Below, piece by piece: positions 26,514 to 42,323 of a stretch of DNA of 57,390 bases (position 1 is its first letter; each line of letters starts with the position of its first letter). The stretch comes from Desulfotignum sp. (GTDB taxonomy: Bacteria; Desulfobacterota; Desulfobacteria; Desulfobacterales; Desulfobacteraceae). Under the pieces are notes generated by a model that was not told where the DNA came from, did no database searches, and was given only the letters and a program-made list of their open reading frames with translations. The DNA lies in the NCBI GenBank assembly GCA_011390635.1, contig JAABSA010000023.1, positions 1 through 57,390 on the forward strand, written 5' to 3'. The position numbers were made by a program, and so were the translations under genes.

Positions 26514-28544
26514 ATGAGCAAAAAAGAAGTTGTCGAAACCACGGAAGCCCAGATCGCTGTCCACTGGAAAGAAGAAGAGTACTATTATCCTTCCCCCAAA
26601 TTCATCGGCCAGGCAAACCTGACCGACCCGGACATCTTTGACCGGTTCAGTCTGGACAATTTTCCCGATTACTATACTGACTTTGCCGAAATGCTCACCT
26701 GGTATAAATACTGGGACCAGGTGCTGGATACCAGTGACGCTCCCTGCTTTAAATGGTTTAAGGGCGGCCTGATCAATGCCAGTTACAACTGTATTGACCG
26801 CCATTTAAAAAACAATAAAAACAAGACCGCCATCCATTTTGTTCCGGAACTCGAAGAAGAACGCATCGACCATATCACCTACCAGGAACTGTATGTCAGG
26901 GTCAATGAATTCGCCTCGCTGCTGCGCAATTTTGCCGGACTCAAACGCGGGGACCGGGTCACCATTCACATGCCCATGTCAGCCGAGCTGCCCATCACCA
27001 TGCTGGCCTGCGCCAGGCTGGGGGTGATTCATTCGGTGGTGTTCGGCGGGTTCTCCGCATCCGCCTGCGCCGACCGCATCGTGGACTCCAACTCCCGGGT
27101 GCTCATCACCATGGATGCCTATTACCGGGCCGGCAAGCTGCTCAACCACAAACAGCATGCCGACGAAGCCGCCAGAATTTCCGAAAAACAGGGCCAGGTG
27201 GTGGATAAGGTCCTGGTGTGGCAGCGGTATCCGGGCAAATATTCCTCAGACACCCCCATGCAGGACGGCAGGGACGTGTTTGTGAATGAAGAGTTGAAAA
27301 ACCATTATGGTGCCCGCATTGAACCGGAAAAAATGCTGTCTGAAGACCCCCTGTTTCTCATGTACACCAGCGGCACCACCGGCAAACCCAAAGGGTGCCA
27401 GCACGGCACCGGCGGATACCTGGCCTATGTCACAGCCATGTCCAAATATATCCAGGATATCCATCCGGAAGATGTCTACTGGTGTATGGCGGACATCGGG
27501 TGGATCACAGGTCATTCCTTTATCGTCTACGGACCTCTTGCCCTGTGTGCTTCCTCTGTAATATATGAAGGGGTTCCCACCTACCCGGATGCAGGCAGGT
27601 CCTGGCGCATCGCCCAGGAACTGGATGTCAATATCTTCCACACCGCCCCCACCGCCATCCGCGCTTTACGAAAACTGGGACCGGAAGAGCCGGCCAAATA
27701 CACCTATCATTTCAAACACATGACCACCGTGGGTGAGCCCATAGAGCCCGAAGTATGGAAATGGTATGAAAGTGCCGTAGGCAAAGGCGAAGCCATCATC
27801 GTGGATACCTGGTGGCAGACGGAAACCGGTGGATTTTTATGTTCCACCGTGCCGGGCATCAAACCCATGAAACCGGGCAGTGCAGGTCCGGGTGTCCCCG
27901 GGATTCATCCCTTCATCTTGGATGATGAAAACAAGGAGATCACCCAGACCGGTATTGCCGGCAATATCTGCATCCGCAATCCCTGGCCCGGACAGTTCCA
28001 GACCATCTGGGGCGACCGCCAGCGCTTTGTAGACACCTATTTTGCCCCCATCTGCACAAATCCGGACAGCAAAGACTGGAAAGACTGGCCCTATCTGGCA
28101 GGGGATGCCGCCATGATGGCGGATGACGGGTATTTCAGGATCCTGGGACGGATCGATGATGTGATCAATGTATCGGGTCACCGCCTGGGCACCAAGGAGA
28201 TCGAATCAGCGGCCCTGGTGGTGGAAGAGGTGGCGGAAGCAGCGGTGGTACCGGTGGCCCATGACATCAAAGGCAAGGAACCGGATCTGTACGTTGCCCT
28301 GAAAACCGGGGTCCAGCCGTCGGAAGAACTGGCAAAGAAAATATCCGATGCAATATGCGACCAGATCGGCAAAATCGCCAAACCCAGAAAAGTCTGGCTG
28401 GTGCCGGATATGCCCAAAACCCGGTCCGGCAAAATCATGCGCCGGGTCCTGGGTGCCATTTCCAACAGAGGAGATGTAGGGGATGTCATGACCCTGGCCA
28501 ACCCGGAAGTGGTGGAAGAGATCAAAAACATGGTTCAAAAATAA
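26514..28544 (+). CDS. acs: acetyl-CoA synthetase (AMP-forming)
   Basis: Activates acetate to acetyl-CoA via acetyl-AMP, the entry step when acetate is oxidised or assimilated. The 676-aa length and order of motifs fit: an N-terminal Acs region, the ATP-binding loop MYTSGTTGKPKG (about 282-293), the acyl pocket DTWWQTETGG, the hinge ILGRIDDVINVSGHRLG, and the C-terminal catalytic lysine in KTRSGKIMRR, which in this family is the usual site of regulatory acetylation. AAAGGAG lies 8 nt before the ATG. It heads a plus-strand gene block with a second acyl-CoA synthetase and a symporter. A sirtuin gene lies at 46273, too far away to infer a link by context. Confidence 0.95.
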   Translation: MSKKEVVETTEAQIAVHWKEEEYYYPSPKFIGQANLTDPDIFDRFSLDNFPDYYTDFAEMLTWYKYWDQVLDTSDAPCFKWFKGGLINASYNCIDRHLKNNKNKTAIHFVPELEEERIDHITYQELYVRVNEFASLLRNFAGLKRGDRVTIHMPMSAELPITMLACARLGVIHSVVFGGFSASACADRIVDSNSRVLITMDAYYRAGKLLNHKQHADEAARISEKQGQVVDKVLVWQRYPGKYSSDTPMQDGRDVFVNEELKNHYGARIEPEKMLSEDPLFLMYTSGTTGKPKGCQHGTGGYLAYVTAMSKYIQDIHPEDVYWCMADIGWITGHSFIVYGPLALCASSVIYEGVPTYPDAGRSWRIAQELDVNIFHTAPTAIRALRKLGPEEPAKYTYHFKHMTTVGEPIEPEVWKWYESAVGKGEAIIVDTWWQTETGGFLCSTVPGIKPMKPGSAGPGVPGIHPFILDDENKEITQTGIAGNICIRNPWPGQFQTIWGDRQRFVDTYFAPICTNPDSKDWKDWPYLAGDAAMMADDGYFRILGRIDDVINVSGHRLGTKEIESAALVVEEVAEAAVVPVAHDIKGKEPDLYVALKTGVQPSEELAKKISDAICDQIGKIAKPRKVWLVPDMPKTRSGKIMRRVLGAISNRGDVGDVMTLANPEVVEEIKNMVQK

Positions 28545-28575: not shown

Positions 28576-30477
28576 ATGTCCAATCTGTATGACCAGGCCC
28601 ATGCACAATCCATCAAAGACCCGGAAGGATTCTGGGGACCCATTGCCGAAGAATGCCACTGGTATAAAAAATGGGACACGGTGCTGGATGACTCCAACAA
28701 GCCCTTTTACCGGTGGTTTGCCGGCGGGGAAACCAACACCTGTTACAACGCGGTGGACCTGCATGTGGAACAGGGAAGAGGAGACCAGGCAGCCATCATC
28801 TATGACAGCCCGGTGACAGACACCATTACCACCTATACCTACAATGACCTGAAAGACCAGGTATCACACTTTGCCGGTGCCCTGATGGAACGGGGGGTGA
28901 CCAAAGGAGACCGGGTGATCATCTACATGCCCATGATTCCCCAGGCCGTGTTTGCGATGCTGGCCTGTGCCAGGATCGGGGCTATCCATTCGGTGGTGTT
29001 CGGCGGGTTTGCCGCCCATGAACTGGCCACCCGGATCAATGATGCCAAACCCAAAGTCATTGTATCTGCTTCCTGCGGCATCGAGATCAAGCGGATAATT
29101 GAATACAAACCGCTATTGGACAAGGCCATCGACCTGTCTGATGCAAAGCCTGATGCCTGTATCATCTTCCAGCGGCCCCAGGCGGCTGCCGACATGCAGG
29201 AAGGCAGGGATTATGACTGGGATGAGGTGCTGGACAATGCAGCCCCGGCGGATTGTGTGCCCGTGGCTGCCACAGATCCCCTGTATATCCTGTACACCTC
29301 CGGCACCACCGGCCAGCCCAAAGGCATTGTCAGAGACAACGGGGGCCATATGGTGGCCCTGAAATGGACCATGAACGCTATTTACAACGTCAACCAGGGG
29401 GATGTCTACTGGGCTGCCTCGGACATCGGCTGGGTGGTGGGGCATTCCTATATCGTGTATGCGCCGCTGTTCAAGGGCTGCACCACCATCCTCTATGAAG
29501 GAAAACCCGTGGGCACACCGGATGCCTCCGCTTTCTGGCGGGTCATCTCCCAGCATAAGGTAAAAACCATGTTCACAGCCCCCACCGCTTTCCGGGCCAT
29601 CAAACAGCAGGACCCGGGCGCCAAATTGATGGCGGGCTTTGATCTGTCCCATTTTAAATACCTGTTTCTGGCCGGGGAGAGGACCGATCCAGACACCCTT
29701 TCCTGGGCGGAAAACAGCCTCAAAATTCCGGTGATCGATCACTGGTGGCAGACCGAGACCGGGTGGGCCATTGCGGCCAACTGTGTGGGACTGCACCAGT
29801 TTGAAGTCAAACCGGGGTCCCCCACAAAGGCGGCCCCGGGGTGGGATCTGGCCGTGCTGGATGAAGCGGGAAAACCGGTGGGTCCGGGGGGTATCGGCGC
29901 CATTGTGGCAAAACTGCCCCTGCCGCCGGGCACCCTGCCCACTTTGTGGCAGAATGATGACAGATACATTTCCGCTTATCTTGCAACATTCCCGGGATAC
30001 TATGAAACCGCGGATGCCGGGTATATTGATGCGGACGGATATGTGTTTGTGATGGCCAGAACCGATGACATCATCAACGTGGCCGGTCACCGCCTGTCCA
30101 CCGGCGCCATGGAAGAGGTGATCGCCGGCCATCCGGATGTGGCGGAATGCGCGGTCATGGGGGTGGAAGATGCCCTCAAGGGCCAGGTACCCCTGGGCAT
30201 GGTGGTGCTCAATGCCGGGGTGGACCGGGACCATGATGAACTGATCAAAGAAGTGGTGCAGCGGGTCAGGGACACCATCGGTCCGGTGGCGGCCTTTAAA
30301 ACCGCCGTGGTGGTCCAGCGGCTGCCCAAGACCCGGTCCGGTAAAATCCTGCGGGGCACCATGCGGTCCATTGCAGACAAAAAAGAGTATAAGGTACCTG
30401 CCACCATAGATGATGACACAATCCTGGATGAAATTACAGCATCTTTGGGAAAGATCGGATACGGAAAACAGGCATGA
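28576..30477 (+). CDS. prpE: propionyl-CoA synthetase-like acyl-CoA synthetase
   Basis: A 633-aa AMP-forming synthetase closely related to PrpE, which converts propionate to propionyl-CoA. Motifs: LYTSGTTGQPKG, DHWWQTETGW (GW instead of the GG seen in the acs product, a difference expected in the acyl pocket), MARTDDIINVAGHRLS, and the C-terminal lysine in KTRSGKILRG. GAGGAGG lies just before the ATG and the acs stop is 31 nt upstream, so the two are co-transcribed. Substrate choice between propionate, acetate and similar acids is inferred from family resemblance only. Confidence 0.85.
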   Translation: MSNLYDQAHAQSIKDPEGFWGPIAEECHWYKKWDTVLDDSNKPFYRWFAGGETNTCYNAVDLHVEQGRGDQAAIIYDSPVTDTITTYTYNDLKDQVSHFAGALMERGVTKGDRVIIYMPMIPQAVFAMLACARIGAIHSVVFGGFAAHELATRINDAKPKVIVSASCGIEIKRIIEYKPLLDKAIDLSDAKPDACIIFQRPQAAADMQEGRDYDWDEVLDNAAPADCVPVAATDPLYILYTSGTTGQPKGIVRDNGGHMVALKWTMNAIYNVNQGDVYWAASDIGWVVGHSYIVYAPLFKGCTTILYEGKPVGTPDASAFWRVISQHKVKTMFTAPTAFRAIKQQDPGAKLMAGFDLSHFKYLFLAGERTDPDTLSWAENSLKIPVIDHWWQTETGWAIAANCVGLHQFEVKPGSPTKAAPGWDLAVLDEAGKPVGPGGIGAIVAKLPLPPGTLPTLWQNDDRYISAYLATFPGYYETADAGYIDADGYVFVMARTDDIINVAGHRLSTGAMEEVIAGHPDVAECAVMGVEDALKGQVPLGMVVLNAGVDRDHDELIKEVVQRVRDTIGPVAAFKTAVVVQRLPKTRSGKILRGTMRSIADKKEYKVPATIDDDTILDEITASLGKIGYGKQA

Positions 30478-30612: not shown

Positions 30613-32397
30613 ATGGATCCAAAAATATGGGTATGGATTTTTCTGGTACTATATATCATTTACTGCTTCTATATGGGCCTGAAGGGGTTTTTCTCTGAAA
30701 AAAAAGCCTCGGGCTACGCCATTGCAGGCCGGTCCATTCCGTTCATCGCGTTTTTGATGGCAGCCACTGCCGCCTCTTTTTCCGGGTGGACCTTTATCGG
30801 GCATCCCGGTCTGATCTGGAAGGCCGGACTGGTATATGCCTATGCATCCTTTTACGTACTCACCATTCCCATCACCGGGGCATTCTTCGCCAAACGCAAC
30901 TGGCTGATGGGCAAGCGCTACGGGTTTATCACGCCGGGTGACATGTTCGCCTATTACTACAACAATGAGGCGGTCCGCTGGCTCACGGTTCTGGCCGCGT
31001 TTCTCTATTCCATTTTCTACTCCGGGCTCCAGCTCATTGCTGCTGCCAAACTGTTCTACTGGACAGCCGGCGTGCCCGAGACCGCGGGGTTGATTTTCAT
31101 GGCCTTTATCGTCTGGTTCTATGTGGTCACCGGCGGTCTGAAAGCCTCCACCTGGGTGGGGGTGCTGCAGTTCTGCCTCCTGGTGGGCGGTATTGTCCTT
31201 CTGGGATTTTACACCATCACAAGTCCCCTTTTCGGCGGCTGGTCCGGGTTTGTTGCCTCCATGGGCGGTCTTGAAGACAAATACATGAAAGTACCGGGCC
31301 TGATTCACTTCGGCCTGGGCAGCGGCGGGTGGACCGCGGTGATGATCCTCACCTATATGTTCGCCCTCATGGGGATCCAGTCATCCCCTGCCTTTATTTT
31401 ATGGAATTTCGGTATTCTTTCTCCCAAACCCCTGGCCTGGCAGCAGGTGTTCATGTCCACCTTTGTGGTGGGCCTGGCCCTGTTCTTTTTCACCGCGTTC
31501 CAGGGTGTCGGCGCAAGGATCCTGATGATGGCCGGAAACCTGGCACCCCAGGTGGACGGTGATGTGGTACCCATGCTCATGACCAAGTTCCTGCCCGGCC
31601 CGGTCCTGGGCCTGGTGTTCATGGGCGCCATTGCGGCCATCCATTCCACGGCAGCCCCCTACATCGGCACGGGCGGCACCATTATCCAGCGGGATGTGTG
31701 GTGGCGGTATGTGAAAAAACAGGGCGGTTCCCACTCCGAGCAGATCTGGACCAACCGGATCTTTGCCACCATACTGGCATGTGCCGCAGTGGTGGTGTCA
31801 TTGACCTCCACTGATGCCATCGTTATGATCGGCGGATTTGCCACGGCATTCGGCACCATCATGTACCTGTGCCTTCTGGGGGTCCACTGGGGATTCAAAT
31901 TTCCCAGTATCGGCGTTGTCCTGGGGCTGATCTGCGCCATTATCGCCTGTTTTCTCACCTACTATGTATGGCAGTATCCCTTGTCCATCCATACGGCAGG
32001 CTGGGGGATTTTTGTCGGGCTGGGCGTAGCATATCTGTGCCGTGGTCTTGGTATCAAAGACAATGAAGAAACCATTGCCCGGCAGAAAGAGGTCAGAGAA
32101 TGGCTCAACTCTATTGACGGCCCCTCTGAAAAAGGCAAACGCTGGCGCGGTTACATGAAGATCGCCGTCCCGGTCTGGTATTTCATGGCCCTGGGACCCG
32201 GGGTTCTCATCGGCAACGATGCCATCTCCTTTGCCGGATTTCCGCACATCTGGTCCTGGCAGATCATCTGGTGGATCCTGGGGATCATCATGATGTGGGG
32301 GCTGTGCTTTAAAGCGGAAATGTCCACCACCTCTGCCGAACAGATCCGGCGGGCGGATGAGGAAACCATGGATGTCACCAAGGAAGCCGACGATTGA
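30613..32397 (+). CDS. sodium:solute symporter (SSS family), probable short-chain carboxylate importer
   Basis: A 594-aa integral membrane protein with about 13 hydrophobic segments and SSS-family features. These include an early TM pair with SGYAIAGRSIPFIAFLMAA, the substrate-region strings ATAASFSGWTFIGHPG, VVTGGLKASTWVG and the long conserved stretch FMGAIAAIHSTAAPYIGTGG. SSS members such as ActP import acetate or related acids with Na+. Its position between acyl-CoA synthetase genes and the signalling genes argues for acetate/propionate uptake. CAGGAGG precedes the ATG. No DUF485/DUF4212 small subunit lies upstream; a 28-aa membrane peptide is encoded just downstream instead. Confidence 0.9.
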   Translation: MDPKIWVWIFLVLYIIYCFYMGLKGFFSEKKASGYAIAGRSIPFIAFLMAATAASFSGWTFIGHPGLIWKAGLVYAYASFYVLTIPITGAFFAKRNWLMGKRYGFITPGDMFAYYYNNEAVRWLTVLAAFLYSIFYSGLQLIAAAKLFYWTAGVPETAGLIFMAFIVWFYVVTGGLKASTWVGVLQFCLLVGGIVLLGFYTITSPLFGGWSGFVASMGGLEDKYMKVPGLIHFGLGSGGWTAVMILTYMFALMGIQSSPAFILWNFGILSPKPLAWQQVFMSTFVVGLALFFFTAFQGVGARILMMAGNLAPQVDGDVVPMLMTKFLPGPVLGLVFMGAIAAIHSTAAPYIGTGGTIIQRDVWWRYVKKQGGSHSEQIWTNRIFATILACAAVVVSLTSTDAIVMIGGFATAFGTIMYLCLLGVHWGFKFPSIGVVLGLICAIIACFLTYYVWQYPLSIHTAGWGIFVGLGVAYLCRGLGIKDNEETIARQKEVREWLNSIDGPSEKGKRWRGYMKIAVPVWYFMALGPGVLIGNDAISFAGFPHIWSWQIIWWILGIIMMWGLCFKAEMSTTSAEQIRRADEETMDVTKEADD

Positions 32398-32569: not shown

Positions 32570-32609
32570 GGAAGCATTTTGGACAAAACCCTTTGTCTGG
32601 AATGCTTCC
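32570..32609 (+). promoter_or_regulatory. hairpin overlapping the start of the sensor-exonuclease gene
   Basis: GGAAGCATT (32570-32578) pairs with AATGCTTCC (32601-32609), with an inner GACAAA/TTTGTC pairing (32582-32587, 32592-32597). The left arm contains the only Shine-Dalgarno-like sequence (GGAAG) for the TTG start at 32579. It may mask translation, act as a weak terminator after the miniprotein gene, or both. Confidence 0.55.
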
Positions 32610-34657
32610 GTAATTTTGCGCCCATGACCTTAAGCCACCGTTTCTGGATATTCGCCCTGGCAGCTGCCGGCATCATACTGTTTGTTGTTGCAGGCACGGC
32701 AGCCTATATCTGGTTTGGTCTGACCCCTGAAAAGGCAGCTGCAGTGGCATCCATCTGTCAACAGCATGCCATTGTCCTTTTGTGTGTGTTTCTTGTTCTG
32801 TGTCTGATATTCTGGGCTGCATCAGATCTGGTGTACAGCAATTACATCAAACCGGTAAAAAAAATATCCGGTGAAGTGGCCATGATTTATGCATCCAACC
32901 CGTCTTTGCGTATTCCTGTGAACGGAAACCACGATATCCAGGCCCTGGCCAGATCCATCAACACCTTTGCCGATACGTTTGAAACCTTGAACAACACCAT
33001 TGCCCGGCAGGTGGTGGACGCCCGAAAAGAAACCGAACAGGAAAGAAACCTGCTGGCTGCCATCATGGGAGAACTGCCCCAGGGAATTATCATCTGCAAT
33101 ATCAGCGGCCGGATCCTGCTGTACAATTCTCTGGCAAAAAAAATATTCACCCGGACCATGGATCTGAAAAAAACCGAACAATTCATGGGGCTTGGCCGGT
33201 CTATTTTTCACCTGCTGGACAAAGACCTTATCGCCCATGCCATGGAAGAGATTCAGGTACAGCTGGCCACCGGACAAAACAGTGCCGGATCTTTTTTTAT
33301 CACCACGGTGTCCACCCATTGTCTGATCAGTGTGGAAACCATCCCCGTCCTGGACAGAAACAATTGCATGACCGGATTTATTCTGGCATTCCAGGACATA
33401 TCCCAGGACATCAGCAAATATCAAACCATCCAGAAACATCTGGCCCGGTTTCACCAGTCTTTGGACGACAAAACCATCGGGGAAGAAAATTTTCACACCC
33501 TTTCAGACGCAATCCTGGACAGTTTTCTGTCCCGCCTGCCTTTGACCCGGCTGGATCCGGCACAATTTTTTTTCCAGGTCCAGAAGCTTACCGGCCATCT
33601 TCATGATATCCGGATCAATGTATACAACAGTGCACACAATGAACTGATCCTGGCAGACACCTATTCTCTGACCCGGGCATTCGTGTTTTTGTTTCAAACC
33701 CTGGCCGGTCTCACACACCGCACAGAGTTTGATCTGGCCGCATCAAAGAGCCATGACCGGATCAGGTGTGACATCACCTGGGAAGATGCCCCTTTGGAAA
33801 TGGCGCAACTTGAAGCCATCCGGCAGATGCGTATCAACGCCCTGCCGGAATTTGAATCGGTTCTCACCCTCAACAACGCCCGGTTCGGTATCCTGGCTTC
33901 CCATGAAACCAAAAGTGCCCATATCACGGTGTCCATCAGGACGACCACTGCACCGGCCCTGCCGAAAAAACACCGGACACCTGTCATGGCCGGGTCCCGG
34001 CCGGAATTTTATGATTTTGACCTGTTCCGGACAAGAGCGCAAAATACAAATCTGCTGGACACCCGGTTAACCGACATCACCTATACCGTTTTTGACACGG
34101 AAACCACGGGGCTGAATCCGGATGGCGGAGATGAGATCATCTCCATGGGCGCTGTGAGGATCGTCAACAACCGCATCCTGTTCGAGGATGTCTTTGAGGA
34201 GCTGGTGGATCCCCGGCGGGATATTCCCATGGCATCCTACAGGATTCACGGGATCAACCATGAGATGGTGGCGGAAAAAGACCCCATTGAAAAAGTGCTG
34301 CCCAGGTTCCGCCAGTTTGTGGCTGACACGGTTCTGGTGGGCCACAATATCGCCTTTGACATGAAGATGATCGCGCGCAAGGAAAAAACAACCCGGATCC
34401 GGTTCCCCAACCCCATACTGGACACCCTTTTGCTGTCGGCTGTTCTGCATCCGGTCCATGAACAGCATGACCTGGAAAATATTGCCAGACGTCTGGGCAT
34501 CAATATCATCGGACGTCATACCGCTTTGGGAGATGCCATCTCCACGGCCCAGATTTTCATAAAATTGATCCCCATCCTGAACAGCAACGGGATTCTGACC
34601 CTGGGGGATGCCATTGCCGTATCAAAAAAATCCTACTATGCCCGATTAAAATATTGA
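32579..34657 (+). CDS. membrane PAS sensor fused to a DEDDh 3'-5' exonuclease
   Basis: A 692-aa fusion. Two membrane segments (about 24-46 and 62-82) frame a short periplasmic loop. A HAMP-like linker (about 85-140), a coiled coil and a PAS domain (about 155-285) follow. The middle (about 290-480) is laid out like a histidine-kinase dimerisation/ATPase core, but I see no H-box or G-box. The C-terminus (about 500-680) is a DnaQ/PolC-type exonuclease with all catalytic residues: D506 and E508 in FDTETTG, D594 in GHNIAFDMK, H647 and D652 in GRHTALGD. It thus looks like a sensor whose output is nucleic-acid or nucleotide cleavage. The start is uncertain: TTG at 32579 inside a hairpin, or ATG at 32624 without a ribosome site. 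Confidence 0.88.
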   Translation: MDKTLCLECFRNFAPMTLSHRFWIFALAAAGIILFVVAGTAAYIWFGLTPEKAAAVASICQQHAIVLLCVFLVLCLIFWAASDLVYSNYIKPVKKISGEVAMIYASNPSLRIPVNGNHDIQALARSINTFADTFETLNNTIARQVVDARKETEQERNLLAAIMGELPQGIIICNISGRILLYNSLAKKIFTRTMDLKKTEQFMGLGRSIFHLLDKDLIAHAMEEIQVQLATGQNSAGSFFITTVSTHCLISVETIPVLDRNNCMTGFILAFQDISQDISKYQTIQKHLARFHQSLDDKTIGEENFHTLSDAILDSFLSRLPLTRLDPAQFFFQVQKLTGHLHDIRINVYNSAHNELILADTYSLTRAFVFLFQTLAGLTHRTEFDLAASKSHDRIRCDITWEDAPLEMAQLEAIRQMRINALPEFESVLTLNNARFGILASHETKSAHITVSIRTTTAPALPKKHRTPVMAGSRPEFYDFDLFRTRAQNTNLLDTRLTDITYTVFDTETTGLNPDGGDEIISMGAVRIVNNRILFEDVFEELVDPRRDIPMASYRIHGINHEMVAEKDPIEKVLPRFRQFVADTVLVGHNIAFDMKMIARKEKTTRIRFPNPILDTLLLSAVLHPVHEQHDLENIARRLGINIIGRHTALGDAISTAQIFIKLIPILNSNGILTLGDAIAVSKKSYYARLKY

Positions 34658-34731
34658 TTAACCAGTACAACAAATGGTAGGGCTGAGTACATGATCAAAA
34701 AACCGGCTACCCCCAAATTGGAGACATGTTC

Positions 34732-35304
34732 ATGAAAAAACCATGGCTGACCTTTGCAGGCCTGTGTTCCGTTGTTCTGGCCATTGTGCTTTTATCTGTG
34801 ATTTTCGGCAGCTACACCAGCATGCTGCGGTCTAAAAACCGGATCAATACCGGTAAAAATCTGCTGGTCCAGGACTGCCGAAACCAGCTGGACCTGGTGC
34901 CGAAACTGGTATCCCTGGCGCCAAAAACCTTTTCCGACGAGACGGTTTCCCGAATAAATGATACGGCACAACAGCTCGGGGAGATCCTGGATTCCTTCCG
35001 GGCCACTGAAGCGCCCCTTGACCCGGACCTTGTGGCGGCCTTTGAAAACACACAGGCCAGGCTTGCAAAGGACATGGATGTATTAACGGCAGCCATAGGA
35101 AAAGATCATTCGTTGTCCAAAGAGATGTATGAACTCTACCTGAAAACCATTTATTCCGCCAAACGCTACAACAAGGAAGCCCTCTATTTTTCCACCAGAA
35201 AGACCGTGTTCCCCGGTTTATTCACCGCCAGGTGGTTCCATCTGGATGAGCTGAACTTTCCCCGCATTGATCTGGATTGTTTTCATCCATGGGGTTTGAA
35301 ATGA
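34732..35304 (+). CDS. LemA-like membrane-anchored protein
   Basis: A 190-aa protein with one N-terminal membrane segment (about 8-27) and a helical periplasmic or cytosolic domain. The stretch NLLVQDCRNQLDLVPKLVSLA resembles the start of the LemA four-helix domain. YNKEALYFSTRKTVFPGLFTARWF resembles its C-terminal helix with the FP motif. The match is weaker than for typical LemA proteins, so I call it LemA-like. The ATG at 34732 is spaced properly from GGAG, unlike the ATG 6 nt earlier. Its stop overlaps the next start as ATGA. Confidence 0.65.
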   Translation: MKKPWLTFAGLCSVVLAIVLLSVIFGSYTSMLRSKNRINTGKNLLVQDCRNQLDLVPKLVSLAPKTFSDETVSRINDTAQQLGEILDSFRATEAPLDPDLVAAFENTQARLAKDMDVLTAAIGKDHSLSKEMYELYLKTIYSAKRYNKEALYFSTRKTVFPGLFTARWFHLDELNFPRIDLDCFHPWGLK

Positions 35305-36755
35305 AATCCGACCAGTCTCTTCTGACTTTTTTCAACCAGCCGGTATCCGCCATCTTCCGGCCCAATATCGCCACCTGCCCCATGGACACACCGGTGCACA
35401 AGGCAGCACAAAAGATGAGCCGCCACAATGCCAGCGCCATCCTGGTCAAAGATGCGGCCCGGAAGATCACGGGCATTGTCACGGATGCGGATCTCAGAGA
35501 AAAAGTGCTGGCAAAAAACCAATCTGGAAACACCCCGGTGTCAGCAGTGATGTCATCTCCGGTGATCACCATTTCAGCAGACTGCCAGGTATTTGAAGCA
35601 TTTTTAACCATGATAGGCAAAGACAAGCGGCACCTGGCGGTTTGCGGAAAATCCGGTGATATTTCCGGCATCATCACGGAAAAAGATCTGATCTCAGCCC
35701 AGACCCGGTCCACTTTTTTACTGCTCAAATCGGTCACATCCGCCAACGACATGGCTGATCTTGAAAACATCCATGCAAAGCTGTGCCGCATGCTTTTGGA
35801 TCCCATCAGCAACGGGGTGAATCCGGACGTCATCACCCGGTTGATCACCACCTTTTCCGATGCCATCCTGGAAAAGATCATGGCCTTTTCCCTTGCAGAA
35901 ACCGGACCGCCCCCCTGTGCATTCGTGTTTTTGACCATGGGATCGGAAGGCAGAGAAGAACAGACCCTGGTATCGGACCAGGACAATGCCATTGTGTATG
36001 CAGATCCCGCATCTGAAGCAGAAGCCGCTGCCGCCGAGACCTATTTCGCCCATCTTGCCGGCCTTGTCTGCTCCCGGCTGGATATGGCCGGATACCGGTT
36101 CTGCGACGGGAACAACATGGCCCAGAACCCCAAATGGTGCCAGCCCCTGTCTGTCTGGAAACAGTATTTTCACACCTGGATCCGCAAGGCCAAGCCCGAA
36201 GATCTGCTGTATTCCAGCATTTTTTTTGATTTCAAAGGCACTTACGGGGATTTGTCTCTTTCCCGGCAGCTGAAAACCTATCTGTTTGAAGCCATATCAG
36301 GCTGGTCCGGATTTTTGCGGAACATGACGGAAAATGCGTTGTATTTCCGGCCTCCCATCGGGTTGTTCGGAAAACTGCGGGTGGAGTCGGAAGGAAAGCA
36401 CAAAGATGCCTTTGACATCAAATATGCCATGCTGCCCATCATTGATGTCACCCGGGTCTATGCCCTGAAATTTGCTGTTTCCCAGACCAACACCCTGCAA
36501 CGGCTGTTCCGGCTGTATACCAAACATGCCATCACCGCCAAGGAACACCACAACATCGTCCAGTCCTATAATTTTTTAATGACACTGCGGTTCCGGCGCC
36601 AGATCACCAACATCATGGACGAAGGCACCGAACCGGACAATTATATCAACCCGGACAACCTGTCCCATCTGGACCGGCACATGCTCAAGGAAATTTTCAA
36701 AACCATTGAAAATTTTCAGCAGAAACTGAATATGGAATTCACCGGAGTGGTGTGA
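35301..36755 (+). CDS. CBS-pair protein with DUF294 nucleotidyltransferase-like domain
   Basis: A 484-aa soluble protein. Two CBS repeats (about 15-140) would bind an adenine nucleotide. A GlnD-like nucleotidyltransferase core follows (about 150-300) with MGSEGREEQTLVSDQDNAIVY, which keeps the G-S and DxD-type aspartates. The DUF294 C-terminal domain (about 310-480) closes the chain. Related proteins beside acetate permease genes in other proteobacteria are proposed to regulate carbon uptake, but no reaction is established that I know of. I chose the ATG at 35301, which overlaps the previous stop (ATGA); the TTG at 35277 is in frame but unneeded. It ends the acetate gene block. Confidence 0.87.
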   Translation: MKSDQSLLTFFNQPVSAIFRPNIATCPMDTPVHKAAQKMSRHNASAILVKDAARKITGIVTDADLREKVLAKNQSGNTPVSAVMSSPVITISADCQVFEAFLTMIGKDKRHLAVCGKSGDISGIITEKDLISAQTRSTFLLLKSVTSANDMADLENIHAKLCRMLLDPISNGVNPDVITRLITTFSDAILEKIMAFSLAETGPPPCAFVFLTMGSEGREEQTLVSDQDNAIVYADPASEAEAAAAETYFAHLAGLVCSRLDMAGYRFCDGNNMAQNPKWCQPLSVWKQYFHTWIRKAKPEDLLYSSIFFDFKGTYGDLSLSRQLKTYLFEAISGWSGFLRNMTENALYFRPPIGLFGKLRVESEGKHKDAFDIKYAMLPIIDVTRVYALKFAVSQTNTLQRLFRLYTKHAITAKEHHNIVQSYNFLMTLRFRRQITNIMDEGTEPDNYINPDNLSHLDRHMLKEIFKTIENFQQKLNMEFTGVV

Positions 36756-37917: not shown

Positions 37918-40443
37918 CTATGGCATCTGGATGTCTCCCTGTTTTGGGTTTTCAGGGGCGCCGGGGACCTCAATCGTAAAACAGCTGCCTTTTCCGGGTG
38001 TGCTCTCAATCTCAAATGTCCCGCCCATCAGGGTAATGCGTTTCTGGATGCTGAACAGACCCAATCCTTTATCGCTGTCATTTTGTCCGTGGCTGCCGGT
38101 ATTGAACCCAACGCCTTTGTCCCTGACACTGACCTTAAGACCGGATCCTGCGGCGGACTGCAAAAAGACCTTTGCACTGGAAACACCGGCATGTTTGACA
38201 GCATTGAACAACAGTTCGCGCAAAGATTCAAACACCAGAACATTCATTGTTTCATTGAGTGCAGCATGATGTTCAATACAAAGATCCACTGTAAAATCAT
38301 ACTTGTCCTGCATCCACTGCTGCAGCCACTTCAGTCCGGCCTGGAGCCCGTTCCTGTGGAGAACAGGCGGACTCAGGTCTGCACTCAGGGACCGGGACAT
38401 CTGGATGCATTCCCCCATAATGGATTCAATCTTGTCAAATTTGCTCTTATGTGCCCCCCGATCCAGTTGCCTTCCAATGGCGCTGGTTTGAAATTTTGCA
38501 GCGACAATATGCTGTTGAAGACCATCATGAAGAACCCTGGCCAGACGTCTGCGCTCTCTTTGTTCAACCATGGTAAGTTCGGCGGTCAGAGCCCTGAGCT
38601 GTTCTGCCCGGTCAGTGAGGCTCTGGTTTGCTTTTTTCAGCATATCTTCGGTTTGACTGCGCCGAATAATTTCAGACTCCAGTGAGGTTACCGTCTGAAC
38701 CAGCGTATTGGTTCTTTCCCGGACTTTATCTTCAAGAACAAGATTCGCCTGCTGTAATTCAGACCGTGTCTGCACACGGTAAATGGCTTGTGCCACATAA
38801 TCGCTGAACGTTTTGATCACTGCCATATCATCAGATGTGAAGGAAGATCTGGTGTCTGAACCAAAAACAAGCATGCCGATCAGATGGTTTTCAACCATCA
38901 GCACCCGGCAGCAGCAGCCCTGGAACCCGCAGGACTGCACAAATCGCTGCAGCCGTTCGGATGTTTTACCGATTGTTTCGGTATACGCACGGTCGGCAGT
39001 TTCAGTGCCACTGCCATCTGAGGCGGTATGAAGTTTCAGATGGCGGAAACCGTTGATCTTGTCCTGCTTCATACCGGCAGAAGATTCCAGGATGAGCCGA
39101 TTTTCAGAACTGTCAGCGGTAAAATACAAAAACATCCGGCTGTCCAGATGGGCCATCACTTTCCGGCACAATGGGTCAATGAGATTCCGGGGATTATCTG
39201 AAGCCAGTAACTGGCCGGATGTATCCGCCAGCAGCCTGAAACGGGACTCACTTTTTTCCAGTGCCGTCTGGATCGCTTTTCTGTCGGTAATATCCTCAAA
39301 AATAGTGGCAAACTGGTTTGGGAACGGTGAATAGGCACTGATGGAAAACCATTTTTTCAAGAATTCAGAATAATTTTCGAACTGGACAGGCTTTCCTGTG
39401 GCTGCTACCTTTCCATACACCCCGATCCAGTCTGCAGGGTCTTTTTCAATGCCGGGGATAACCTGTGAAGCAGGTTTGTCAATCATGTTTTTCAATCCTG
39501 TCAATCTTTCAAAAGCCTGATTGACCTCCAGAAACACATAATCTTCGGGTCTGCCGTCAGGACCATACACCATCCGGTGGTTGGCAAAGCCATCAATCAT
39601 GTTGTCAAACAAGGATTTATACCGTTTCCTGCTCAGATACAGATTTCGGTAAAACAATTCATACGGTTTTGTCAACCCTGTCTGGATAAAAGCCCTGTAT
39701 ACACAATAAAACGCAATCACTTTACAATAATGCCCCAGCAGGTTGGCCGGTCCGTAAACACTGACATATGTCGTAAATGCCAGTTCCGATACAATTGTCA
39801 TCACCAGGGATGCCAGTATCCATTTCAATATGGTTCGGTTAAAGTGTCTTCGGCGTTTTACAGTAATAACGCCGGCACAAAACAGAATCAGGCATATCAG
39901 ATATTCACTGACAATTTTAAACCGGGTCAGTCCACCGCCGGTTTCCATAAAGCAGTCCGGAAAATTTTGCCAGTAGAAAATGGATATCAGCAAAAAAAGC
40001 GTCACCAAACTGTAAACCCACATGATGTGGTATGCCTGAATGCGCCGATGGATCAGCAGAGGGGCTGCCAGCAGTGTCAGGCTCTGCATATAGCGAGCGG
40101 CAATCCAGAGCTGCGTTGATGTATTGGCGGTGTATCCGGAAAAAACCCCCATGCCTTTGTAGGAAAAGGTGTGGGCAAGATCCAGCAGACTGATGAACAA
40201 AAAAGCAATGCCGACGATCAACAGGTATTGATTGTCCAGCATCCGCCGGGAATGCCATACCACCATGAACACACCACAGCCGATTACGATGGAAAACAGC
40301 TCGGCCATGCTGTGAAAAACCAGAAAATTGTAAAGATAAGCGGTATACAGTATGATCAATACAGCCAGAGCCAAACCTGCATTATACAGTTTTTTCAAAA
40401 AACATCCTTTATACATACTGTGTAAAAATATCTGTTTCAGCAT
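37918..40443 (-). CDS. MASE3-PAS-GAF sensor histidine kinase (orphan)
   Basis: An 841-aa membrane sensor kinase. The N-terminal 260 residues hold seven or eight TM segments of the MASE3 type (FLISLLDLAHTFSYKGMGVF is typical). A PAS domain (about 285-395), a GAF domain (about 410-570), a coiled coil, then a NarL-partner type kinase core (HisKA_3) follow. The phospho-acceptor is H639 in RRRLARVLHDGLQQ. The ATPase has N-box ELLFNAVKHA and G-boxes DKGVGF and KGLGLFSI. No response regulator is adjacent, so the partner is encoded elsewhere. The ribosome site for the chosen start is weak; an ATG 27 nt later is possible. Confidence 0.9.
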   Translation of the reverse strand: MLKQIFLHSMYKGCFLKKLYNAGLALAVLIILYTAYLYNFLVFHSMAELFSIVIGCGVFMVVWHSRRMLDNQYLLIVGIAFLFISLLDLAHTFSYKGMGVFSGYTANTSTQLWIAARYMQSLTLLAAPLLIHRRIQAYHIMWVYSLVTLFLLISIFYWQNFPDCFMETGGGLTRFKIVSEYLICLILFCAGVITVKRRRHFNRTILKWILASLVMTIVSELAFTTYVSVYGPANLLGHYCKVIAFYCVYRAFIQTGLTKPYELFYRNLYLSRKRYKSLFDNMIDGFANHRMVYGPDGRPEDYVFLEVNQAFERLTGLKNMIDKPASQVIPGIEKDPADWIGVYGKVAATGKPVQFENYSEFLKKWFSISAYSPFPNQFATIFEDITDRKAIQTALEKSESRFRLLADTSGQLLASDNPRNLIDPLCRKVMAHLDSRMFLYFTADSSENRLILESSAGMKQDKINGFRHLKLHTASDGSGTETADRAYTETIGKTSERLQRFVQSCGFQGCCCRVLMVENHLIGMLVFGSDTRSSFTSDDMAVIKTFSDYVAQAIYRVQTRSELQQANLVLEDKVRERTNTLVQTVTSLESEIIRRSQTEDMLKKANQSLTDRAEQLRALTAELTMVEQRERRRLARVLHDGLQQHIVAAKFQTSAIGRQLDRGAHKSKFDKIESIMGECIQMSRSLSADLSPPVLHRNGLQAGLKWLQQWMQDKYDFTVDLCIEHHAALNETMNVLVFESLRELLFNAVKHAGVSSAKVFLQSAAGSGLKVSVRDKGVGFNTGSHGQNDSDKGLGLFSIQKRITLMGGTFEIESTPGKGSCFTIEVPGAPENPKQGDIQMP

Positions 40444-40490: not shown

Positions 40491-42323
40491 TCAGATTACA
40501 TTGTAAAGCGGGCCACCCCGGCAGGCCATCTGATCCACCCGGCGGGATACTTCAGGGTCCGGTTCCAGGGGGGCCGCATGAAAGGGTTTGATTCTGGCAT
40601 CGATGATCAGGGGAGCTTCGCACCCCCAGTGTTTGAACACCGTCTTTTCCTTAATCCCATAAATATCATGGGACGGATTGGACCGCAAAAATGTCACCCA
40701 CAAAAAATTGGCAAAGGTTGCCGCGCAAAACGGTGCATCATCGACCACCACCAAAAGGGCCAGACCGGTCAGGTCACAGGCATTTTGCAGCCGGGTTTTC
40801 AACTGGTTGATCTGCTGTCTTGCCCGGGTATAGGAGGTGAAAACCGGTCCCTGGACCACAGCCATACCCGGGCCGGCCATCATGGCAGAAGAAAAATCAT
40901 CCGGCACTGAAAATGTGGCAGGCAGGGTTCCTTGAAGCTGCCGCTTCACAGAGCCTGCCGCAGCCAGGACCAGTTTGGAGCCCTGATTGATCTGCCGGCC
41001 GGAATAATCCAGGGTATCCATGGTGGTGCGGGTAAAAAAGTGCAGGTCCCGGGAAAAATCTGTGCGTGCCAGGACATGGACAAAAAAGGTTTTTTCATCA
41101 TGCACATCCAGATCCGGGCAGTCTTCATGGGCTGCCAGTATCAGGTATTTGGCAAGAGACAGCTGGCCGGTGCCCAAAATGGCGCTGGCATGGGTGAGCA
41201 GTTCCCGGGGCATGGGTTCTTCATAGGGCAGGTATCTTTCTCTGGCCTTGGCCAGCAGCAGCGGATGCACCCCTGCCGCATCCACCGCATTGACGGCGGT
41301 GACACCGGGTATGGTGTTGGCAACGGCATTGCGGGTGATCTCATGGATAAGCCGGCCGAAGTTGCTGTCCTCCTGTGGCGGGCGGCCCACCACGGTAAAC
41401 GGAAAAATCGCCCCGGCCCTGTGCCACACCGATGCCACCTTTATATACGGAAATGCATGGGTATCGGAATAATACCCCAGATGGTCCCCGAACGGGCCTT
41501 CGGGTTTTGTCCGGTGGGGTACCACCCATCCTGTGATGCAAAAATCCGCATCCCCTGACAGAATAAACCCGTTGTGCCGGGCATACCGAAAATTTCGTCC
41601 GCCTAAGGCCCCGGCAAAGGCGATTTCCGGCACCCCTTCCGGCAGGGGCATGACCGCGGCCAGGGCATGGGCCGGTGGGCCGCCGATGAAAATAGAGACT
41701 TTCAGGGGCTGGTTTGCTGCCAGGGCTTTCTGGTGATGGATACTGATTCCCCGGTGCAGCTGATAATGCAGTCCCACTTCCTGGCTGGGTTTGTACTGGT
41801 TGCCCGACAGCTGAATTCTGTACATGCCCAGGTTGGACTGCAAAACGGAATCGGTGTCCGGATCCCGGGAAAACACCTGGGGCAGCAGTACAAATGCTCC
41901 CCCGTCCCGGGGCCAGCAGGTAATCAACGGCAGCTGGTCAATACGGGTGGTATGGGCCATCACCTCCGGCCTGTGACGTGACACCGGCAGTGCGTGCAAC
42001 AGGGCACAGGCCGCTTTTACCATCCGACCCGGAGATTTTACGGCCTGCATGGGCGCAAATTTCATGTCCACCAGGGATTTGACCTGTTCCAGTTCCGGTT
42101 CAAAAATTTTTAGCGTGCGGCCCCAGGTGCCGTAAAGATTGGACAGGGCCGAAAATTTTGTATTTTTTACCTTTTCAAACAACAGGGCCGGCCCCCTTGC
42201 ATCAAACACCCGCCGGGTGATTTCAGCCATCTCCAGGTGCGGGTCAACCAAATCTGTAATACGGACCAGCTCTCCTTTGTCCTCTAGAAACTGCACACAT
42301 TGGCCAAGGCTGGAAAATTTCAT
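40491..42323 (-). CDS. UbiD-family decarboxylase
   Basis: A 610-aa member of the prenylated-FMN-dependent UbiD decarboxylase family. Typical blocks are visible: an N-terminal region with GPALLFEKVKN, the central FPYIKVASVWHRAGAIFPFTVVGRPPQEDSNFGRLIHEIT, and a C-terminal NQGSKLVLAAAGS. Long UbiD proteins like this act in menaquinone or ubiquinone-type quinone biosynthesis or on aromatic acids; menaquinone synthesis fits an anaerobe but is inference. No UbiX flavin prenyltransferase gene lies nearby. The start overlaps the stop of the PPOX-like gene by 4 nt. Confidence 0.88.
   Translation of the reverse strand: MKFSSLGQCVQFLEDKGELVRITDLVDPHLEMAEITRRVFDARGPALLFEKVKNTKFSALSNLYGTWGRTLKIFEPELEQVKSLVDMKFAPMQAVKSPGRMVKAACALLHALPVSRHRPEVMAHTTRIDQLPLITCWPRDGGAFVLLPQVFSRDPDTDSVLQSNLGMYRIQLSGNQYKPSQEVGLHYQLHRGISIHHQKALAANQPLKVSIFIGGPPAHALAAVMPLPEGVPEIAFAGALGGRNFRYARHNGFILSGDADFCITGWVVPHRTKPEGPFGDHLGYYSDTHAFPYIKVASVWHRAGAIFPFTVVGRPPQEDSNFGRLIHEITRNAVANTIPGVTAVNAVDAAGVHPLLLAKARERYLPYEEPMPRELLTHASAILGTGQLSLAKYLILAAHEDCPDLDVHDEKTFFVHVLARTDFSRDLHFFTRTTMDTLDYSGRQINQGSKLVLAAAGSVKRQLQGTLPATFSVPDDFSSAMMAGPGMAVVQGPVFTSYTRARQQINQLKTRLQNACDLTGLALLVVVDDAPFCAATFANFLWVTFLRSNPSHDIYGIKEKTVFKHWGCEAPLIIDARIKPFHAAPLEPDPEVSRRVDQMACRGGPLYNVI

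Follow-up and report, generated by a model that had tools for sequence, protein, structure and literature searches.

A Desulfotignum membrane PAS protein in which a predicted degenerate histidine-kinase core leads to a DEDDh exonuclease, usually encoded near a CBS-DUF294 gene

What does a membrane-bound sensor protein do when the domain at its output end is an exonuclease? The question is raised by an open reading frame (ORF) in a 57,390-nucleotide stretch of Desulfotignum sp. (assembly GCA_011390635.1, contig JAABSA010000023.1, positions 1 to 57,390), here called the window. The original prediction read this ORF as one gene, as against a frameshift or misassembly fusing two. The latter is ruled out by ten same-genus orthologues from other genomes, which match from residues 1–14 to residue 692 at 66–97% identity with zero internal stops, and the ORF is a single real gene (Table 1). 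The G003 copy and the second G010 copy, also from the genus, are truncated by contig ends, and the match rows of three family relatives (G022, G034 and G035) each contain one internal stop, with open frames that still run to 679–724 residues. The sequence GGAAG lies four bases 5′ of the TTG start at 32579. However, the equivalent of ATG 32624 (M16) is the earliest possible in-frame start in 6 of 12 same-genus ORFs (L003–L014), and the true start may be this ATG rather than the TTG.

Table 1. Features of the sensor-exonuclease gene and of its surroundings in the window.
Feature	Position	Strand	Evidence or remark
Acetate–CoA ligase	26514..28544	+	TIGR02188, 772.1 bits, over cut-off
Second acetate/propionate–CoA ligase-like protein	28576..30477	+	Best models under their cut-offs
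SSF sodium:solute symporter	30613..32397	+	Pfam, NCBIfam
Sensor-exonuclease, whole ORF	32579..34657	+	TTG start, 692 codons
Two hydrophobic helices read as membrane helices, very short connecting loop	32630..32848	+	AlphaFold model and sequence
HAMP-like/signalling helix	32849..32977	+	Weak Pfam HAMP match; helix 103–149 in model
PAS domain	33074..33406	+	Pfam PAS_4
Predicted pseudo histidine-kinase core: short degenerate DHp helices and kinase-type ATPase fold without motifs	33395..33961	+	hhalign, Foldseek
DEDDh (RNase_T/DnaQ-type) exonuclease domain; D506, E508, D594, H647 and D652 intact	34088..34558	+	Pfam, Foldseek, alignments
Small protein of unassigned family, hydrophobic N-terminus (by eye)	34726..35304	+	End overlaps DUF294 ORF
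CBS-CBS-DUF294-DUF294_C nucleotidyltransferase, proposed partner	35277..36755	+	Pfam, neighbourhood

A contig scan with exonuclease motifs, in which copies without those motifs cannot appear, returned at least 343 relatives, and the best 80, not all of them complete, were kept as loci. Alignment A2 (70 rows) comprises the window protein, two relatives from the order and 67 of the best 80 of these at least 343 loci; the 13 omitted loci include contig-end, broken or sensor-poor copies and near-duplicates of kept ones. By record title, the best 80 of at least 343 come from Desulfobacterales, Desulfuromonadales and alpha-, beta- and gammaproteobacteria, and one or two metagenome-assembled genomes each are titled Nitrospirota, Acidobacteriota, Flavobacteriales/Vicingus, Caldilineaceae, Magnetococcales and others, so that the sensor-exonuclease architecture reaches several phyla as far as titles go. 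Among 59 related genomes the gene is patchy: by our reading 33, the source genome included, carry it (in G038 the contig stops short of the exonuclease), and none was found in the other 26, part of which are incomplete.

The AlphaFold2 model, computed from the window protein aligned with 59 relatives, has a mean pLDDT of 85.2 and a pTM of 0.75. Its helices 3–31 and 49–90 (677-residue numbering) underlie the two membrane helices, whose limits were judged from the sequence by eye. PAS_4 matches residues 166–276 above its cut-off (E = 3.6e-5, 24.4 bits against 23.1), while HAMP (PF00672) matches residues 91–133 below its own (E = 0.024, 15.4 bits against 25) and reaches an E-value of 0.01 or better in 2 of the 70 A2 relatives, drawn from the best 80 of at least 343. 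Of the membrane-HAMP-PAS sensor that had been proposed, the hydrophobic helices and the PAS domain stand, and the HAMP assignment stays below threshold. When the whole model was compared with the PDB by Foldseek, WalK came out on top (E = 4.5e-16), followed by sensor kinases such as 4i5s, LOV-kinases and ThkA, with the exonucleases of DinG, PolC and epsilon interleaved among them. The low TM-scores (TMq 0.14–0.21) and high rmsd (16–30 Å) of the whole-chain kinase matches are as expected for a multi-domain chain whose domains are differently arranged. The window protein shares the domain order of WalK-type kinases (TM-HAMP-PAS-kinase), WalK being the best whole-model match, but it differs from them in having neither phospho-acceptor nor ATP motifs and in its added exonuclease. 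One of the 70 A2 ORFs carries in addition an EamA transporter domain (E = 1.1e-29).

The output domain is recognised as RNase_T (PF00929, residues 504–660) with an E-value of 4.3e-34 and 118.9 bits against a cut-off of 24. The five catalytic residues of a DEDDh exonuclease are found where they had been predicted (Table 1), and none of the 20 rows of alignment A1 or the 70 rows of A2 (from the best 80 of at least 343) differs at any of them. To judge from these residues, the predicted domain would have 3′-5′ exonuclease activity. By fold it matches the PolC-type structure 2p1j (E = 7.9e-26), with further matches to PolC, DinG, epsilon, ExoX and RNase T. It resembles the exonuclease domains of PolC, DnaQ and DinG in both sequence and fold, but a membrane sensor takes the place of their polymerase or helicase. 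The window protein exceeds the cut-off of the less strict subfamily model TIGR00573 (89.3 bits against 71.5), whereas the DNA polymerase III epsilon equivalog TIGR01406 gives 97.2 of the required 222.7 bits, and no epsilon equivalog exceeds its cut-off among the 25 listed of 40 NCBIfam matches. RNase_T has two matches in the source genome (E ≤ 0.001). The second belongs to a 242-residue exonuclease (G000:C12, L182:1161-3793), a member of PRK09146 with 278.7 bits against a cut-off of 266, a model for which the window protein scores 61.1 bits. The gene of this short exonuclease overlaps a cNMP-CBS-DUF294 gene by 4 bases, and both RNase_T proteins found in the source genome hence adjoin DUF294.

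Between PAS domain and exonuclease lies a region that the original prediction took for a kinase core that had lost its H-box and ATP-binding motifs, the nuclease having become the new output. Three lines of evidence, a profile comparison, fold prediction with Foldseek and traces in HMM searches, agree with this, and they are only partly independent because sequences are shared between them. For the profile comparison, the middle of 60 proteins (the window protein and 59 from the best 80 of at least 343 loci) was aligned, and this alignment was compared with the kinase cores of 24 of 30 HisKA loci fetched from the same genome; these had been chosen by an H-box regular expression, and their histidine is invariant by construction. 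hhalign gave a probability of 97.6% over 212 columns (E = 3.7e-12, for one comparison). Ten column-shuffled copies all failed (≤0.2), the reversed alignment reached 0.7 and the PAS part 0.2; against the HisKA half alone the middle scored 86.5, against the HATPase half alone 95.2. Folded alone (189 residues), the middle gave a pLDDT of 88.0, and Foldseek matched it to ZraS (E = 5.1e-8, the best value) as well as to RetS, HK853, DivL and further proteins that are kinase cores or derive from kinases, at TMq values of about 0.45–0.6. Both DivL and RetS, the latter of which we take to be a histidine-kinase-like protein with altered kinase function, are among the 50 listed matches. The comparison with kinase ATPase domains that had been suggested as a check thus comes out in favour of a kinase fold. 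Among HMM traces of kinase ancestry, HisKA is met in 4 of the 70 A2 relatives (from the best 80 of at least 343), and in L044 the WalK model spans PAS and HisKA (E = 7.9e-16). HATPase_c gave no Pfam match in the window protein, nor does it appear in the list of 21 families from the 70 A2 members.

The catalytic motifs are gone almost throughout. In the mapped columns, the phospho-acceptor histidine is found in 0 of 60 rows, the two N-box asparagines in 2 and 0 of 60, and the second G1 glycine in none of the 60; the G1 aspartate is likewise absent from all 60 rows, with tryptophan in its place in 58. Four of the five columns of G2 (GTGLG) are gaps, and the last holds glycine in 11 of 60 rows. 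Relics persist in the H-box proline (21/60), the aspartate preceding the N-box (45/60) and the first G1 glycine (51/60), the last being an aspartate in the window protein, in which the whole H-box stretch, histidine included, is a gap. The evidence supports reading the middle, by sequence and model, as a probable histidine-kinase core (DHp/CA fold) stripped of its catalytic motifs, a domain in which ATP binding and phosphotransfer would have been lost.

The pseudokinase is also the least conserved part of the protein. In A1 the exonuclease averages 66% pairwise identity, the HAMP/helix region 47%, PAS 44%, the membrane part 30% and the pseudokinase 22%. Fewer than 130 of its residues are aligned in 9 of the 70 A2 rows (from the best 80 of at least 343), and in 6 of the 70 (L094, L104, L105, L109, L112 and L117) it has dwindled to 4–14 aligned residues with the other parts kept; it is likewise lost in L026. 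These copies indicate that the link between sensor and exonuclease is kept while the dead kinase disappears. The membrane part is mostly missing in two A2 rows (L077 and L115).

That a kinase fold can signal without being an active kinase has a precedent in the pseudo-histidine kinase DivL (PMC4211667). DivL is described there as retaining its N, G1, F and G2 boxes and as having the kinase module at its end; in the window protein, unlike DivL, the boxes are mostly gone and an exonuclease follows.

Which process the exonuclease serves is suggested by its neighbours. The gene belongs to a row of same-strand genes that includes two CoA ligase genes and a symporter gene (Table 1), and downstream of it stands a CBS-DUF294 gene whose product contains GSEGREEQTLVSDQDN, a sequence that we take to fit the nucleotidyltransferase GS...DxD motif. 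Within the fetched flanks (up to 8 kb), CBS-DUF294 occurs at 61 of the best 80 of at least 343 loci, lying upstream on the same strand in 30, downstream on the opposite strand in 18, downstream on the same strand in 11 and upstream on the opposite strand in 2. For comparison with the 61 of 80, we estimate a chance rate of about 1–3% per 16 kb from 1–5 DUF294_C matches per genome of 2.6–6.1 Mb. Where at least 5 kb were available on both sides the count is 38 of 50 (again from the best 80 of at least 343). In the remaining 19 of these best 80, DUF294_C lies elsewhere in the genome in 19 of 19, a result made less telling by those same 1–5 matches per genome. Among the 59 related genomes, the sensor-exonuclease lies at 34 places, and at 22 of these DUF294_C is no more than 6 kb away. 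Seven of the other 12 have little or no downstream contig (G002, G003, the second G010 copy, G023, G038, G041 and G042), and five lack DUF294_C despite contig room (G022, G027, G039, G049 and G051). Short exonucleases in the same genomes show the association at 14 of 19 places, with 78–198 bases between matches. DUF294_C is present in 32 of 33 genomes with the sensor-exonuclease and in 12 of 26 without it (Fisher p = 8e-6, uncorrected for kinship or completeness), a co-occurrence that is confounded by both.

Metabolic neighbours recur as well. A second-round search with first-round ORFs placed SSF near 46 of the best 80 of at least 343 loci; an acetate-ligase match with E < 1e-50 lies near 17 of the same 80, and AMP-forming ligases, in a broader second round, near 23 of them. 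Rhodobacter capsulatus (L102) combines the sensor-exonuclease with both DUF294 and SSF genes. The response to acetate that had been proposed is supported by this gene context, the CoA-ligase and SSF neighbours being what speaks for it. NCBIfam ranks the general SSS model and PanF/PutP above the ActP models for the window SSF, all below cut-off. The small protein encoded between exonuclease and CBS-DUF294 is 31–72% identical in same-genus and some same-family loci.

A further connection between the two enzymes comes from an exchange of output domains. Five relatives (G011, G022, G034, G035 and G023) have ORFs of 734–815 codons in which a homologous PAS/pseudokinase module is followed at the end by DUF294-DUF294_C instead of the exonuclease. 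Pfam recognises PAS in all of these except the G011 ORF and, weakly, HisKA in four of them; the G011 ORF aligns by BLASTP with the window protein at 23% identity over 413 columns (E = 3e-18), through PAS, pseudokinase and linker as far as the start of the exonuclease. The five form one clade (support 100/100) among the order's sensor-exonucleases, where the weak backbone (45/12) leaves the direction of the swap unreadable. A scan of 297 phylum members that used the G011 PAS/pseudokinase as its only query (E 1e-15) matched 6 genomes; it missed the source genome's own copy and so says nothing on frequency. All five ORFs that were read have the exonuclease motif, and the remaining match is the truncated G038 copy. 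In G011 (L193:6511-13965) the swap ORF shares 4 bases, counting the stop codon, with the ORF of an acetyl-CoA hydrolase/transferase whose end is GNAT-like, and genes for a response regulator and a 939-residue kinase are convergent with the swap ORF. The swap ORF of G023 (L195:558-4882) adjoins a UbiD gene.

A soluble counterpart is already known. In Pseudomonas putida, PP_0353 (RNase_T) and PP_0354 (CBS) form an operon and are targets of MxtR/ErdR, ErdR binding the PP_0354 promoter; a PP_0353 mutant is slow on pyruvate, a PP_0354 mutant is unaffected, and neither is affected on acetate (PMC9927547). The window pair is similar in that an exonuclease-family protein stands beside a CBS protein in connection with carboxylate use. 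PP_0353 differs in that it is reported with a Pfam RNase_T hit alone and no known secretion signal (PMC9927547), whereas in the window protein membrane helices, PAS and pseudokinase are present as well; the 242-residue exonuclease and cNMP-CBS-DUF294 pair of the source genome resembles PP_0353/PP_0354 in general make-up. The protein Pflu5625 has cAMP-binding, CBS and nucleotidyltransferase domains, and its mutant is without phenotype (PMC5715377). In the literature searched, which left subscription journals mostly outside, we recognised no paper on a sensor-fused exonuclease, on its pseudokinase or on the PAS/pseudokinase-DUF294 fusion. New here are the DUF294 nucleotidyltransferase as usual neighbour and the output swap.

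On balance we lean, by a modest degree, towards a membrane-anchored PAS/dead-kinase exonuclease that opposes CBS-DUF294 and thereby tunes how acetate, propionate or pyruvate is taken up and activated. A signal sensed by PAS, and perhaps by the membrane helices too, would alter both the helix bundle and the dead kinase core; this core could serve as a dimerising relay or clamp under allosteric control and so switch or position the 3′-5′ exonuclease at the membrane. DUF294 would add nucleotides to the 3′ end of an RNA or oligonucleotide, or to a protein, and the exonuclease would take them off; both substrate and signal are presumptive. A tail on RNA appears more likely than one on protein because of DEDDh chemistry as generally understood, and the kinship of DUF294 with GlnD/GlnE makes a protein tail conceivable as well. 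Several observations count against the proposal: NCBIfam scores place the window SSF outside the ActP type, DUF294_C is missing at the five places with contig room, HAMP falls below its Pfam cut-off, and the lack of a pyruvate phenotype in the PP_0354 mutant speaks against a simple two-enzyme cycle (PMC9927547).

The nearest competitor keeps the same protein and changes the target. DUF294, as a relative of GlnD/GlnE, would transfer a nucleoside monophosphate to a protein (the symporter, a regulator or Acs), from which the exonuclease domain, as a phosphodiesterase, would remove it. GlnD_UR_UTase and GlnE do match the DUF294 proteins, weakly and below cut-off. PolC, DinG, epsilon, ExoX and RNase T, whose structures match the DEDDh domain, act on polynucleotides, which argues against a protein target. 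DUF294_C has been grouped with the C-terminal domains of GlnD/GlnE (PMC3710099), and a CrbS/R-controlled protein with the same kinds of domain as Pflu5625 is said to be predicted to act via nucleotidylation (PMC5715377). We consider this version unlikely, if worth keeping in mind. Slightly less probable again is a membrane-tethered decay factor for mRNA or oligoribonucleotides that acts alone, DUF294 being merely co-regulated. Its attraction is that mRNA decay was the authors' speculation for PP_0353 and that the PP_0354 mutant has no phenotype (PMC9927547); the four gene arrangements and the exchange of exonuclease for DUF294 indicate instead a shared step.

Two further readings are very improbable. 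A replicative proofreading subunit fused to a sensor would accord with the DnaQ-family domain, the TIGR00573 score and the two RNase_T matches of the source genome, among which no other classical epsilon is seen; it is rejected on the membrane anchor, the same-strand run with CoA ligases and symporter and the NCBIfam cut-offs given above, and the gene was not found in 26 of the 59 relatives, some incomplete. An anti-phage defence protein, about as improbable, is brought to mind by the PADLOC models DEDDh and PDC-S48. These match the generic exonuclease domain and nothing beyond it, the window neighbours are metabolic, and no PADLOC model matches the window DUF294 protein; this reading was set aside accordingly.

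If the preferred reading of an exonuclease opposing CBS-DUF294 is true, a sensor-kinase chassis can directly drive nucleic-acid enzymes once phosphotransfer is lost, and DUF294 and its exonuclease partner, both widespread and little characterised, would be tied into one testable pathway; this would also give a starting point for explaining why the PP_0353 mutant of P. putida is slow on pyruvate. The arrangement suggests an undescribed, carbon-source-dependent switching of nucleotide tails or tags. More tentatively, and with doubts prevailing, a dead PAS module derived from a kinase and placed before two opposed enzymes, the DEDDh exonuclease and DUF294, could form, together with the CBS- and cNMP-sensing versions, a widespread system of reversible tailing or tagging with nucleotides, reporting on acetyl-CoA/acid status. 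Such a pair would work like kinase/phosphatase pairs do with phosphate.

DUF294 genes are found in other settings too. DUF294_C matches cluster in G032:C7 (three within about 8 kb) and in G019:C111 (four within about 13 kb), on partly opposite strands. In the window, a MASE3 sensor histidine kinase gene (37918–40443, minus strand; PAS, GAF, HisKA_3 and HATPase_c matches) lies close to the DUF294 gene, and an ORF that appears UbiD-like by eye (40491–42323, minus strand) is located a few kb from it.
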